Part shown: positions 886 to 61,984 of the stretch, one piece after another | How positions within the stretch are numbered: the first letter of the stretch is position 1 | Layout of the letters: the number at the start of each line of letters is the position of its first letter | Source of the DNA: Xylophilus ampelinus | GTDB lineage: Bacteria; Pseudomonadota; Gammaproteobacteria; Burkholderiales; Burkholderiaceae_C | Direction of reading: 5' to 3' | Length of the DNA: 64,000 bases | Assembly: GCF_901875635.1 (NCBI RefSeq) | Contig: NZ_CABFMN010000073.1 | Coordinates: 62,001 to 126,000 of the forward strand | Translations under genes and position numbers: made by a program | Notes under the pieces: generated by a model | Told to the model about the DNA's origin: nothing | Seen by the model: only the letters and a program-made list of their open reading frames with translations | The model's database searches: none

Positions 886-2082
886 TCAGGCCGCCAGCCT
901 GATCGCTGCGGCGTTGGCGGCCGCACGCGCGCTGGCGTCGAGCGCCAGCAGGTCCGCCAGCGATCCGGGATTGGAAGGCGCCACCGCCTCCAAAGTTTCC
1001 ATGTTCACGGCGTGGATGCGATCGAAACGCAGGCGTCGGTCGAGGAAGGCCTCGACCGCGACCTCGTTGGCCGCATTGAGGACGGCCGTGGTGCCCGGTG
1101 GCGCACGCAGGGTCTGCCAGGCGAGGTCGAGCCCGGGGAAGCGGCCGGCGTCCGGGACTTCGAAGGTCAATGCGCCCAGCGTGCGGAAGTCGAGACGGGC
1201 GGTGCCGCTCTCGACCCGCGCCGGCCAGGCCAGGCCACAGGCGATGGGCACGCGCATGTCCGGCGTGCCCAGCTGCGCCAGCACCGAGCCGTCGACGAAC
1301 TGCACCATCGAGTGGATCACGCTTTGCGGGTGGATGACGACCTCGATCTGCTCGGGCGACACGCCAAAGAGATGGCGGGCCTCGATCACCTCGAGCGCCT
1401 TGTTCATCATGGTCGCTGAGTCGACCGAGATCTTGCGGCCCATGACCCAGTTGGGGTGCGCACAGGCCTGCTCGGGCGTGACGGCAGCGAGCGTATGCGC
1501 CTCGCGCTCGCGGAAGGGACCGCCCGAAGCCGTCAGGACAATCTTGTCGATGCGCTGCGGCCAGACCGCCGGATCTTCCGGCAGGCATTGGAAGATCGCC
1601 GAATGCTCGCTGTCGATGGGCAGCAAGGTGGCGCCGCCGCGACGCACGGCCTCCATGAACAGTTCACCGCCCACCACCAGCGCTTCCTTGTTGGCCAGCA
1701 GCAGGCGCTTGCCGGCACGCGCGGCGGCCAGACAGGGCGCCAGGCCCGCGGCGCCGACGATGGCCGCCATGACGATGTCGACATCGTCGTCCGATGCTAT
1801 CGTTTCGATAGCATCTTGCGCAATGATGACGCGGGTTTCAAGCCCGTTTTGCTTGAGCTTTTCGGCCAGCAGTGCAGCGTGCGGCTCGCTCGCCATGGCC
1901 GCGAACCGCGGCCGGAAGCGCGCGCACTGCGCCAGTAACTCGTCCACCTTGGTGGCCGCCGACAGCGCGAAGACCTCGAAGCGTTCCGGGTGTCGGGCGA
2001 TCACGTCCAGCGTGCTGACACCCACCGAGCCGGTCGAGCCCAGCACGGTGACGCGTTGGCGGGGAACGGAAAGGTTCTTCAC
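886..2082 (-). CDS. dxr: 1-deoxy-D-xylulose 5-phosphate reductoisomerase
   Basis: Second enzyme of the MEP isoprenoid pathway (DXP to MEP, NADPH-dependent, cytosolic). 398 aa, normal for the family. The NADPH-binding GSTGSVG loop is at residues 15-21, followed by the [12 protein letters not shown] and SEHSAIFQ metal/substrate motifs and a [12 protein letters not shown] segment. The GTG start at 2082 overlaps the cdsA stop as GTGA, which fixes the start. Residues about 76-97 are encoded by an in-frame copy of the window's dispersed palindromic repeat (1795-1858). The segment lies in a variable part of the NADPH-binding domain, so activity is probably kept. ispD and ispF of the same pathway lie at 25.5-26.7 kb. 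Confidence 0.97.
1795..1858 (+). repeat. Dispersed palindromic repeat, copy A (inside dxr)
   Basis: GCTATCGTTTCGATAGC within 1795-1813, then TTGCGCAATGATGA, GCGGGTTTCAAGCCCG hairpin, and TTTTGCTTGAGC. It is antisense to dxr, in frame, and encodes residues about 76-97. Confidence 0.88.
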
Positions 2083-2927
2083 AGGGACGCGAGCATCATC
2101 GCGAGCGGCAGCGTCGGCAACAGGGCATCCACCCGGTCCAGCACGCCGCCGTGGCCGGGCAGGAGCTGACTGCTGTCTTTGGCACCGGCGCTGCGCTTGA
2201 TGAGCGACTCGACCAGGTCGCCCACGACGCTCATCGCGGCGAGGAACAGCGCGCCCAGCGCCAGCAGCCACCAGCCGCGCCCCGCAAGGTGCGAGTAGAG
2301 GCTGGGCACCAGCGCCCCTGCTGCGCGATCGGCCCAGACCCAGACGAAGGCAAGCACCAGCACGCCGATCATGCCGCCCCAGACGCCCTCCCAGCTCTTG
2401 CCTGGACTGATCGCCGGTGCCAGCTTGTTGCGCGTGAACTTGAGGCCGAAGGCGCGCCCCGCGAAATAGGCGAACACGTCGGCCACCCACACGAGCACCA
2501 GGATCGACAACAGGAAATTGATCCCGATCATGCGAGCCTGCACCACGGCCAGCCACGCCACCCAGAGCGCCAGGAGCCCGCCGACGAGCCGCAGCGGTTT
2601 GGGAATTCGCGGCCAGCCCGGCACGGCCACCTTGAGCAGGGCGCCGCCGACCAGCACCCACGCGGCGCCGGCGACGATCCACAGGCCGGTCAGCCGCACC
2701 TCGAGCAAGCCCAGAACCCAGGACAGGACGCACAGCGCCAAGGCCTCGAAACCGATGAACAGCGCCATGCGCGGGCCGTAGCCGTTGAGCCGACCCCACT
2801 CCCAGCCGGCAGCCGCGATCATCGCCAGCATGATGCAGGCGAAGGGAACGTGGGAGCCGGGATAGAACAGTGCGGGCAGCAGGATCGCCAGCAGGACGAG
2901 CGCGGTGATGATGCGTTGCTTGAGCAT
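2079..2927 (-). CDS. cdsA: Phosphatidate cytidylyltransferase (CDP-diglyceride synthase)
   Basis: Integral inner-membrane enzyme making CDP-diacylglycerol from phosphatidate and CTP. 282 aa from ATG 2927, with about eight hydrophobic segments. The C-terminal CDS signature is visible: [10 protein letters not shown] followed by [20 protein letters not shown]. The frame is open further upstream, but that part lies inside uppS, so the ATG 8 nt after the uppS stop is preferred. It overlaps dxr by 4 nt (GTGA). Operon position between uppS and dxr is typical. Confidence 0.95.
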
Positions 2928-2935
2928 GCGCGCCG

Positions 2936-3679
2936 TCAGGCTGTCTGTTGCTGGGGCGCCGCCGGAGCGGCAGCGCCATCGAGTTGGGCCGAGGTCTGGC
3001 CGAAGCGCCGTTCGCGCCGACCGAAGGCGGCGATCGCCTCGTCCAGCGCGGCCTCGTCGAAATCGGGCCACAGGCGATCGCTGAAGAACAGCTCCGCATA
3101 AGCGCTCTGCCACAGCAGGAAATTGGACAGTCGCTGCTCGCCGCCGGTGCGGATGAACAGGTCCGGGTCGGGCACGTGGGCCAGCGCCATCGCACGATCG
3201 AGGTTGAGCTCGGTCGGCGGCAGCCCCTGTGCAGCCAGCTTGGCGGCGGCCTGCGCGACGTCCCAGCGCCCGCCATAGTTGAAGCAGACGTTGAGTACCA
3301 GCCGCACGTTGTGTGCCGTGGCAGCCTCCGCCTGCGCAAGGCCATTGCGGATGCGCTCCGACAGACCCTGGCGCTCGCCGACGAAATGCAGCCGAACGCC
3401 ATCGGCCTGCAGCCGCGGCACCTCGCGCCCCAGCGCCATCACCAGCAATTCCATCAGGCCCGATACCTCGTCCTGCGGCCGGTTCCAGTTCTCGGACGAG
3501 AAGGCGAACACGGTGAGCACCGCCACACCCCGGTCGGCGCAGGCCTTGACGCAGCGGCGCAGCGACTCGACGCCCTGTTTGTGCCCCGCCACGCGGGGCA
3601 GGAAGCGCCGGGTGGCCCAGCGGCCATTGCCATCCATCACGATGGCGATGTGATGCGGAACGGTGCGCGAGGCACTCAT
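2936..3679 (-). CDS. uppS: Undecaprenyl diphosphate synthase (cis-prenyltransferase)
   Basis: Condenses eight IPP onto FPP to make the C55 carrier lipid precursor for peptidoglycan and O-antigen. 247 aa from ATG 3679. The catalytic [12 protein letters not shown] motif lies near the N-terminus (Asp16), followed by [11 protein letters not shown] and the C-terminal [19 protein letters not shown] substrate-binding signature. A proline/glutamine-rich tail ([11 protein letters not shown]) follows the conserved domain. It starts 35 nt after frr. Confidence 0.97.
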
Positions 3680-3714
3680 CGAGCGGTTCGGGGCGACGAT
3701 GGTTCGGCCCGGGA

Positions 3715-61002: not shown

Positions 61003-61018
61003 GAGAGGCTTTCAATAC

Positions 61019-61140
61019 GGGCAGCCGGACGCGAAAGACGCGAAGGTTTCGCGAAAGGCGCGAAAGAACAGCCGGATGAACAATGTCTTCTTTCGCGTCC
61101 TTCGCGGAATCTTGGCGTCCTTCGCGTAGGGCTGTCCGGA
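61019..61140. repeat. Inverted pair of TTCGCGTCC-type repeats between btuD and cobO
   Basis: Two approximately 50-bp arms in inverted orientation, each built from CGCGAAAGACGCGAAGG-like units and bounded by GGGCAGCC / GGCTGTCC. They are separated by about 20 bp and fill the whole 139-bp gap. Transcripts across it would fold into a very long hairpin. Confidence 0.8.
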
Positions 61141-61141
61141 T

Positions 61142-61984
61142 TCAGCGCGCCAGCGCCACGAACTCGCCGGCCACCTGGTGCACGGCGACGCGGTGGTCGA
61201 AGACGGCTTCGAGGGCGCGATGCGTGGCCGGGTCGGCGGCGGGGCCATGGTGGGCGATGCGGCCGGCCGCCATCACGACCAGCGCATCGGCCGCCAGGGC
61301 GGCATGCAGTTCGTGCAGCACGCTCACCACGGCGCAGCCGGCGGCAGCCAGTTCGCGCGCGGTGGCCAGCCAGTCGGCCTGGTGCGGCGGATCGAGGTTG
61401 GCCAGGGGCTCATCCATGAGCAGCACCTCGGCCTCGACGGCCAGGGCCCGCGCGAGCAGCACGCGCTGGCGCTCGCCGCCCGAGAGCTGGCCGATCGGCC
61501 GGTCGCGCCAGTCCCAGGCCTGGGTGCGGCGCAGCGCGCGCTCCACGGCCGCGCGGTCGGCGACCGAGGGCGCGGCGAGCCAGCGCTGGTGCGGCAGGCG
61601 GCCGAGCATGGCGACGTCGTAGCTGGTGAGGTCGTCGGCGGCGCCGTCGCCCACGCCGCTCTGTGCCAGCCAGGCCAGCGCCCGCGCGCGCTCGCGCTCG
61701 CGGGACGATCGCTGCATCCACGGACGGCCGAGCAGTTCGACCTGGCCGGCATGCGGCAGCAGCCCGGCCAGTGCGCGCAGCAGCGTCGACTTGCCGGCGC
61801 CGTTGGGGCCGACCACGCTGGTCCAGGTGCCGCGGGGCAGTGCGAGGTCGATGCCGTGCAGGACCTCCACGCCGCCGAGCGCAACGCGCAGGCCCTGCGT
61901 CGTGATCGCCTGATCTTTCAAGCCAAATCGGGCTCCAGCGCCCGCCCCGCTTGCGGCACCAGCTATGGAATTCATAGCATTCAT
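61142..61984 (-). CDS. btuD: Vitamin B12 ABC transporter ATPase BtuD
   Basis: 280 aa from ATG 61984, which overlaps the btuC stop by ATGA. Walker A GPNGAGKSTLLRAL (residues 59-67), signature QLSGGERQRVLLARAL, and Walker B VLLMDEPLANLD, with His switch VLHELHAAL. Residues 3-23 (Ala/Gly-rich) are encoded by the dispersed repeat at 61918-61978 and precede the normal start of the ABC domain, so this N-terminal extension is repeat-derived. B12 specificity is inferred from its neighbours. Confidence 0.92.
   Translation of the reverse strand: MNAMNSIAGAASGAGAGARFGLKDQAITTQGLRVALGGVEVLHGIDLALPRGTWTSVVGPNGAGKSTLLRALAGLLPHAGQVELLGRPWMQRSSRERERARALAWLAQSGVGDGAADDLTSYDVAMLGRLPHQRWLAAPSVADRAAVERALRRTQAWDWRDRPIGQLSGGERQRVLLARALAVEAEVLLMDEPLANLDPPHQADWLATARELAAAGCAVVSVLHELHAALAADALVVMAAGRIAHHGPAADPATHRALEAVFDHRVAVHQVAGEFVALAR
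61918..61978 (-). repeat. Dispersed palindromic repeat, copy J (N-terminus of btuD)
   Basis: Minus strand: GCTATGAATTCCATAGC, then TGGTGCCGCAAGCGG, GGCGGGCGCTGGAGCCCG and ATTTGGCTTGAA. In frame and sense. Confidence 0.9.

Follow-up and report, generated by a model that had tools for sequence, protein, structure and literature searches.

A REP-like 67-bp repeat of Comamonadaceae chromosomes and its possible link to a resident RAYT

Results

The palindromic repeat described here is over-represented in, and restricted to, a single bacterial family; its palindrome arms are conserved, a half-palindrome is fused to the end of the gene for a REP-associated tyrosine transposase (RAYT) in motif-bearing genomes only, and it is found in genes both as an insertion and, at different sites, as a rewriting at constant length. 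We read it tentatively, doubt slightly outweighing belief, as a REP-like element on the chromosomes of Comamonadaceae: an oriented recognition motif of some 67 bp, tied to and putatively recognized by a RAYT that is resident there, mostly in single copy.

A composite repeat of one family

The core palindrome, GCTAT-N7-ATAGC, occurs in 294 perfect copies in the nearest genome (G001) and in six within the window, by which we mean the whole 64-kb stretch of DNA analyzed; the reversed control gave none in either. Alignment of the copies shows a 67-nt composite: the palindrome is followed at fixed distances by blocks close to TGCTTGCGC, GGACGGGCGCTGCAGGCC, and ATTTGG, and the downstream half holds about 34 bits on its own. 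At non-coding sites the palindrome arms carry 1 mismatch in 110 positions versus 10 in 76 for the spacer; the arms are conserved, and the AT-rich spacer is free to drift. The element is confined to the Comamonadaceae, with at least 20 copies in 70 of 250 family genomes, at least 100 in 33, and four or fewer in 164. In two of the densest genomes there is one copy per 10–18 kb. Most copies lie between genes, and some are inside essential genes.

The genome-wide count is thus far above chance, in keeping with the copy-number expansion proposed in the preliminary description. Some window copies are imperfect, as might be expected of chance resemblances picked by eye in a GC-rich window, but the palindrome counts against the controls rule this explanation out, and its probability is practically nil: when only the half of the element not used for picking is scored, each of the 19 rows from coding or near-coding sites also beats 4,000 of 4,000 random coding positions.

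No element match was found in 50,697 phage records and a single one in 72,556 plasmid records; a 150-kb Polaromonas plasmid has no perfect palindrome and three with one mismatch. At Rfam gathering cut-offs the window yielded two tRNAs and nothing else. In the literature covered, most subscription journals lying outside it, the matches listed for searches by family, genus, or literal sequence do not describe the repeat, and no paper brought together DNA uptake sequence and Comamonadaceae. A word search of one REP survey found none of six Comamonadaceae-related words, and the available passages on Rhodoferax repeats concern CRISPR, not the present element.

The copies in the window

All ten copies reported in the preliminary description are present, with genes called by a caller trained on comparative codon phase. 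Six do fall within reading frames, in either orientation: in dxr, nnr (bifunctional NAD(P)H-hydrate repair), the SIMPL signal peptide, cobS, cbiB, and the ABC-ATPase N-terminus. The amidase gene indeed takes its stop codon from a copy, and the placement expected of a terminator is seen for three copies between convergent called genes.

Copies of the element in the 64-kb window, with the host gene of copy 1
Feature	Position	Strand	Palindrome (start, state)	Context
Copy 1	1796..1862	+	1796, perfect	In dxr, antisense to gene; in-place, constant length
dxr (DXP reductoisomerase)	886..2082	-		Host gene of copy 1
Copy 2	8487..8553	+	8487, 1 mismatch	Supplies TAG stop of amidase gene (7120-8502)
Copy 3	10557..10623	+	10557, perfect	Sense in nnr (10038-11504)
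Copy 4	11495..11561	-	11545, perfect	Between convergent genes; strong GC hairpin, T-rich tail
Copy 5	22487..22553	-	22537, perfect	Sense; forms signal peptide of SIMPL-domain (DUF541) gene; in-place
Copy 6	25405..25471	-	25455, perfect	Between convergent genes
Copy 7	34847..34913	+	34847, 1 mismatch	Intergenic, between convergent called genes; also in G001, G008, G009, G011; not in G002
Copy 8	42269..42335	+	42269, 2 mismatches	Antisense in cobS (42121-42912); in-place
Copy 9	60030..60096	+	60030, 1 mismatch	Antisense in cbiB (59291-60265); graded states among relatives
Copy 10	61912..61978	-	61962, perfect	Sense, N-terminus of ABC-transporter ATPase gene (61142-61978, start codon putative); insertion vs G002, G004, G015

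Insertion and in-place rewriting

Several of the coding copies in the window are not insertions, because the dxr product aligns without gaps to E. coli DXR despite copy 1, and because dxr, cobS, and the SIMPL gene carry the motif without any change in length. The preliminary description took orthologues in distant genera with the same residues as the mark of ancestral sequence, which would refute insertion; part of this is seen at these three genes, where the length is shared but the residues are not. Insertion, the route it had envisaged, does account for the ABC-ATPase N-terminus, where 63–69 nt are missing from G002, G004, and G015 (the start codon being putative), and for a rubredoxin reductase of another genus with about 24 extra residues relative to P. 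aeruginosa, but it is not supported as the general route. At copy 3, nnr exceeds its length in four motif-free relatives by 15–24 nt. The best reading is that the element would enter genes along two routes, one being insertion and the other the rewriting of resident sequence in place.

The cbiB site, whose gene name agrees with the list of CbiB homologues, shows graded match scores: −10.5 in G002, 10.7 in G011, 26.2 in G008, 37.2 in G009, 41.4 in the window, and 48.3 in G001. A polarity test of G002, which is placed as sister to the carriers with a tree support of only 59, gave 23:14 within the element against 37:64 in the flanks (p 0.011); this seems to favor motif gain in the other lineage, although reversion to preferred codons would look alike. 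Among solved structures there was no match for the cobS product, and for a GST-like protein the best structural match stops short of the motif site.

Association with RAYT

A search for a RAYT had been suggested in the preliminary description, and the suggestion is partly borne out, at the 3' end of the gene and not by its presence. One full-length RAYT relative is found in each of 39 of 39 motif-rich genomes, and relatives also occur in 46 of the 48 motif-poor genomes that were counted, so the mere presence of the gene is no guide to the motif. A GCTAT half-palindrome 6–9 nt from the end of the RAYT unit, ATnTGTCC, is found in 16 of the 39 motif-rich genomes (14 genera) and in none of 30 counted motif-poor ones (Fisher 2e-5, kinship ignored), the strict pattern being missing in the other 23; it is also seen in G002 as well as in two carriers, G009 and G011. 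In four of four carriers of the genus (G001, G007, G009, and G011, scoring 52, 18, 41, and 17) the RAYT stop is directly adjoined by the downstream half of the element, which is not the case in G002, G003, G004, G005, G006, or G015. Upstream of RAYT, within 110 nt, a GCTAT/ATAGC pentamer is present in 6/39 motif-rich and 3/30 motif-poor genomes. Palindromes with at most one mismatch number five in the 9,000 bp beside 30 RAYT genes versus four in 79,710 bp elsewhere.

RAYT type goes with the motif in part: on the RAYT tree the motif label needs 11 changes, compared with a shuffled mean of 25; 15 motif-poor RAYTs fall in one starred group, and the motif-bearing genomes are not a single clade. 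The RAYT-end copy could be a single ancestral copy inherited along with the gene. No GTAG-type head is conserved next to the palindrome: the consensus there is GCTGCAG, and GTAG occurs only in a minority GCTACAG variant, on the opposite strand.

A hairpin not confirmed across the family

The preliminary description gave all copies a CGGGC-GCTACA-GCCCG hairpin followed by a T-run, and made termination a defining property. Neither is confirmed for the family. Across 48 aligned copies GGGC..GCCC is kept in 5, only GGC..GCC in 18, and neither in 25, and no conserved GC stem with a T-run emerged as a family feature; the mean fold is −7.7 kcal/mol versus −7.4 for shuffles. The RNAalifold consensus contains only the palindrome, which is invariant in that alignment because the copies were picked by it. 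For the hairpin as named, 61% of cells pair; its covariation score, which 12 of 500 shuffles reach, counts weakly in its favor, but shifting it by one column scores higher. With the hairpin intact in 5/48 and not clearly conserved, "terminator" is therefore no family property. That the copies are mobile intrinsic terminators is accordingly very improbable to us, even though convergent genes flank three of the window copies, copies 3 and 4 have a GC stem and a T-rich tail, and in G190 39 of 55 singly oriented sites point along the presumed direction of replication (origin assumed near coordinate 1); the sense copies in nnr and the SIMPL gene, moreover, sit where transcription has to read through.

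Discussion

We propose that RAYT or a partner would read the palindrome and copy or paste the element as single-stranded DNA, and that an element strand annealing to a partly matching gene might lead to in-place conversion instead of insertion. Selection or ongoing conversion would maintain the palindrome arms, and lineages without the motif at the RAYT end would mostly lack copies. Counter to this proposal, the constant-length coding copies are not the product of transposition alone. Also speaking against it are the RAYT relatives in motif-poor genomes, the motif-rich genomes in which the strict 3'-end pattern is missing, the scarcity of pentamers upstream of RAYT, the scatter of motif-bearing genomes over the RAYT tree, and the lack of a conserved GTAG head. 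A stronger form, which we consider rather unlikely, is that the element spreads by overwriting: a domesticated RAYT would read the 67-bp motif and convert partly matching DNA letter by letter, leaving its length as it was. Conserved proteins throughout the family, among them isoprenoid and cobalamin enzymes as well as signal peptides, would in this way be rewritten in place to carry a DNA recognition signal.

The main rival of the RAYT reading is an uptake-sequence-like drive, in which alleles matching a DUS-like motif are preferentially taken up or recombined, and matches thus build up in place in and between genes. Coding copies of constant length and graded state (as at cbiB), the conserved arms around a free spacer, and the near absence from phage and plasmid records speak for it, as does the attribution of many recent DUS in Neisseria to recombination rather than point mutation (PMC2397512). 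ComEC/Rec2, however, has a match in all 80 of the 80 genomes, whether or not they carry the element, and is therefore not discriminating; the element is 67 bp long with an informative downstream half, is spaced more widely than the DUS of Neisseria, which lie about 1,150 nt from one another (PMC2397512), includes true insertions, and shows weak depletion in accessory DNA, where 85 of 460 kb hold 1 of 19 palindromes. The RAYT-end link is also left unexplained, and we regard this drive as improbable.

Less probable still is a binding site for a chromosome-organizing or nucleoid-associated protein, spread by selection for site density. matS/MatP, Noc, and SlmA work in a comparable fashion, and the conserved arms, the AT-rich free spacer, and the chromosomal location would suit such a site, as would the spread along one chromosome of the 59 copies that are followed by T, of which every tenth has 1–11. 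That same subset shows no exclusion zone, though, and a dimer site needs no asymmetric downstream half. The element is nearly absent from most family genomes and is therefore dispensable, and the RAYT-end link is again not accounted for.

One genus bears on how REPs spread: it contains motif-bearing, partial-state, and motif-free genomes, each of which has a RAYT, with RAYT ends that differ; the RAYT–repeat link and the direction of change are therefore directly testable. DNA-level selection or conversion can alter amino acids of conserved enzymes, and such positions may be misread as protein adaptation.

Comparison with known systems

Like REP/REPIN sequences with their RAYTs, the element is a multi-copy, mostly intergenic chromosomal palindrome with a mostly single-copy RAYT and a copy at the RAYT end, here in motif-bearing genomes only. 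Unlike them, it is a 67-bp composite without a conserved GTAG head, many copies are coding, some without insertion, and the RAYT copy lies mainly on one side, whereas published RAYTs have the repeat on both sides of the gene in inverted orientation (PMC2817692). With DUS of the Neisseriaceae and USS of the Pasteurellaceae it shares restriction to a family, a chromosomal copy number in the hundreds with sites both within genes and outside them, constant-length appearance in genes, and absence from whole lineages; it differs in its 67-bp length with a palindrome, its sparser distribution, some true insertions, and its tie to RAYT, and an uptake role is putative. Rickettsia palindromic elements are likewise palindromic repeats in-frame in unrelated genes and translated to peptide, but they are insertions of about 150 bp with a conserved peptide (PMC10969869), while ours is 67 bp, reads in both orientations, and is not an insertion in several of its copies. 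MITEs such as SPRITE, which is terminator-like (PMC10969869), and Correia elements are also small and dispersed; unlike in these, no target duplication was noticed in an alignment of six element sites with unclear boundaries.

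Anatomy and distribution of the repeat

The repeat is present at all ten places named in the preliminary description, GCTATN7ATAGC being perfect in six copies, with one mismatch in three and two mismatches in one. The element is composite: blocks of about TGCTTGCGC, GGACGGGCGCTGCAGGCC and ATTTGG follow at fixed distances 3′ of the palindrome, and this downstream half holds 34 bits over 50 positions (49 training sites, lowest leave-one-out score 3.8). Forty-eight copies align gap-free over 67 columns, a result partly built in by picking them at a fixed-spacing score of at least 5. 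Fifteen of them come from G001, the genome nearest to the window (sharing 32% of its sampled 31-letter words); among the copies from the other genomes, four lie within called genes and some more at the edges of genes. A genome of 51% GC, G046, has the identical layout in other letters.

The palindrome arms are conserved. Between carriers (the window, G001, G008, G009 and G011, with G002 as an intermediate), and with G002-centred sites excluded, mismatches at non-coding and edge sites are 1/110 in the arms, 10/76 in the spacer, 132/510 downstream and 70/377 in the near flank; at coding sites they are 9/230, 21/161, 109/1035 and 125/759. Fisher tests of arms versus spacer give p of 0.0006 and 0.0016, which are optimistic, as genomes recur across comparisons. 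A terminator hairpin as a family feature, proposed earlier, did not hold up: its GC stem is intact (GGGC..GCCC) in 5 of 48 copies, reduced to GGC..GCC in 18 and neither in 25, the mean fold energy is −7.7 versus −7.4 for shuffles, and the RNAalifold consensus structure is the palindrome only. The hairpin as first drawn pairs in 61% of cells (reached by 28/500 shuffles), its covariation score is attained by 12/500 shuffles, and the structure slid by one column scores higher. A few window copies do look terminator-like, the best being listed in the table.

The proposed copy-number expansion is borne out, with 294 palindromes in G001 versus none for the reversed pattern used as control. Inside the genus, G007 has 206 and G005 one; G007 and G008 appear to be the same strain. 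The element is both over-represented and restricted to one family: at least one palindrome occurs in 168/250 family genomes (reversed controls 0–7), with at least 100 in 33, at least 20 in 70, 5–19 in 16 and four or fewer in 164, and in an order-wide draw of 250 the 243 genomes from 50 other families have 0–10 each (controls 0–48). We infer that the family is Comamonadaceae from the genomes named in an exact-pattern scan (27 loci), which include Xenophilus sp. E41, Diaphorobacter nitroreducens, Comamonas granuli, Ottowia, Acidovorax temperans, Giesbergeria, Extensimonas and Polaromonas. Consensus searches, which copies of other dialects could escape, found nothing in 50,697 phage records, a single partial match in 72,556 plasmid records and 14 loci in about 2.9 million viral contigs; the perfect palindrome is absent from 150 kb of one Polaromonas plasmid.

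Genomes of several genera (G018, G099, G156, G232, G239) share a palindrome whose spacer is exactly GCTATGACTGTCATAGC, which suggests a single conserved site. On the G190 chromosome, T-followed copies are unevenly oriented between the halves (18:9 versus 7:21).

Features of the window, and one of a compared genome
Feature	Position	Description
Six coding copies		dxr; nnr; SIMPL-domain gene (signal peptide); cobS; cbiB; ABC ATPase
Terminator-like copy	11495–11561	among the two best
Terminator-like copy	10557	among the two best
Copy 7	34847	present in window, G001, G008, G009, G011; absent in G002; classed with the insertions
Stretch just past copy 7	~34914–35020	window only, holds GTTCGGGCTGAGCCTGTCGAAGCC; missing from five aligned relatives
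Likely accessory island, judged from alignments	~30385–34126	continuous with G009; alignments of G001, G002, G008, G011 break at ~30385, restart near 34126–34150
Different repeat, ~85 bp	60339–60424	many copies in many genus genomes, motif-free included; 74–92% identity among the matches listed
Another repeat, ~125 bp	61014–61143	CGCGAAAG...CTTTCGCG type; 77–84% identity in G001, G007, G008, G011 among the matches listed
ComEC/Rec2 match, motif-free G015	contig C4, 731100–732845	in-frame TAG

Copies within genes, in place and by insertion

All six window copies said to be translated were placed in genes. Over the five carriers, 64 perfect palindromes (orthologous sites counted more than once) fall within called genes in 18 cases, at edges in 11 and between genes in 35, with zero perfect matches for the reversed control; since called coding sequence makes up 90–93% of the larger carrier contigs, this is a strong intergenic enrichment of the motif. 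Nineteen rows outside the training set (12 called within genes, three edges, four called intergenic, namely two SIMPL and two ABC) were scored for the downstream half, which played no part in picking sites, and each outscores 4,000/4,000 random coding positions. In a 20-kb stretch of another genus, three of six palindromes lie within genes: a lipoprotein signal peptide, which we take to be SCO1-like, a GST-like gene and a rubredoxin reductase. The gene labels bamB-like and prpE-like are likewise presumed from reading the sequences.

At dxr the site has 67 letters, gap-free, in all genomes scored; element scores are 46 (window), 47 (G001), 46 (G011), 38 (G008), 37 (G009) and 22 (G002), versus −16, −30, −37 and −25 in G004, G015, G006 and G003. 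The element differs by 49–61% from these last four, the flanks by 12–30%, and the four differ among themselves by 16–48% at the site. The dxr protein also aligns gap-free with E. coli DXR across the site, so no net insertion took place at dxr. Gap-free cobS scores 34.7–39.7 in the five carriers, −6.6 in G002 and −44 to −68 in four others; SIMPL scores 33.7–48.2 in carriers, 16.0 in G002 and −18.1 in G004. The ABC N-terminus has 67 letters in carriers and 6, 4, 2, 19 and 34 in G002, G004, G015, G003 and G006; in nnr, four others are 15–24 nt shorter than the carriers and G002, and about 24 residues at the copy site of the G046 rubredoxin reductase are missing from P. aeruginosa. Insertion into genes, as first claimed, thus stands for the ABC N-terminus and the rubredoxin reductase and not for dxr, cobS and SIMPL. 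Judged by these alignments, some copies are evidently true insertions and some coding copies evidently arose at constant length.

A RAYT and its 3′ end

The suggested search for a REP-associated tyrosine transposase (RAYT, or TnpA-REP) found relatives in 39/39 motif-rich genomes and 58/60 others, including 46 of the 48 wholly counted motif-poor genomes, so presence alone explains nothing about the motif. (Among the 60, the motif is present in G002, G009 and G011; 48 counted whole have 0–2 palindromes each; and counts or the stretches read show G003, G004, G005, G006 and G015 to be free of the motif or almost so. These groups cover all of the 60 except G010, G012, G013 and G014.) The 3′ end of the RAYT is nevertheless linked to the motif: GCTAT stands 6–9 nt from the unit end ATnTGTCC in 16/39 motif-rich genomes (14 genera) versus 0/30 counted motif-poor ones, and also in G009, G011 and G002 but 0/8 other genus genomes examined. 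GCTAT/ATAGC lies within 110 nt downstream of the RAYT in 22/39 versus 4/30, and upstream in 6/39 versus 3/30. Several motif-rich genomes missing GCTAT have GCTAC, GCTCC or GCTCT there, as does motif-free G004 (GCTCC). The element's downstream half directly follows the RAYT stop in G001, G007, G009 and G011 (scores 52, 18, 41 and 17), and no such copy was found there in G002, G003, G004, G005, G006 or G015.

Palindromes with at most one mismatch occur at 9/30 motif-rich RAYT loci, five in the 9,000 bp that lie no more than 150 bp from the gene, four in the 79,710 bp elsewhere outside it and two inside; this excess is partly the general intergenic preference. Mapped onto a tree built from 75 RAYTs, the motif-rich label takes 11 changes versus 25 in shuffles; 15 of the motif-poor rows fall into a single starred group, and the motif-rich rows are not one clade. 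Unit ends in many genera, motif-rich or not, have a conserved GATnTGTCCC..AATT and, further on, a AATCTGACCCC-like stretch (e.g., L146, L160, L172), possibly the ends of the RAYT unit itself.

Mechanism and relation to known systems

We propose that the RAYT or a partner would read the palindrome, and that single-stranded copies may insert, or may convert DNA that they partly match after annealing to it. The main rival remains an uptake-like drive that spreads motif matches, because it predicts stepwise gain in place. The graded series at cbiB fits such a drive, with scores of −10.5 (G002), 10.7 (G011), 26.2 (G008), 37.2 (G009), 41.4 (window) and 48.3 (G001), and 66–70 letters in four others versus 67. 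A ComEC/Rec2 match is present in 80/80 genomes.

A literature search, largely outside subscription journals and for part among the matches listed, returned no account of the repeat itself; the kinds that it resembles are already known. As described in PMC2817692, published RAYTs always lie between two inverted REPs and coevolve with them; the Comamonadaceae RAYT fits this two-sided flanking on one side only. Set against REP/RAYT systems and the Rickettsia palindromic element (RPE), the repeat lacks or half shows a defining feature of each.
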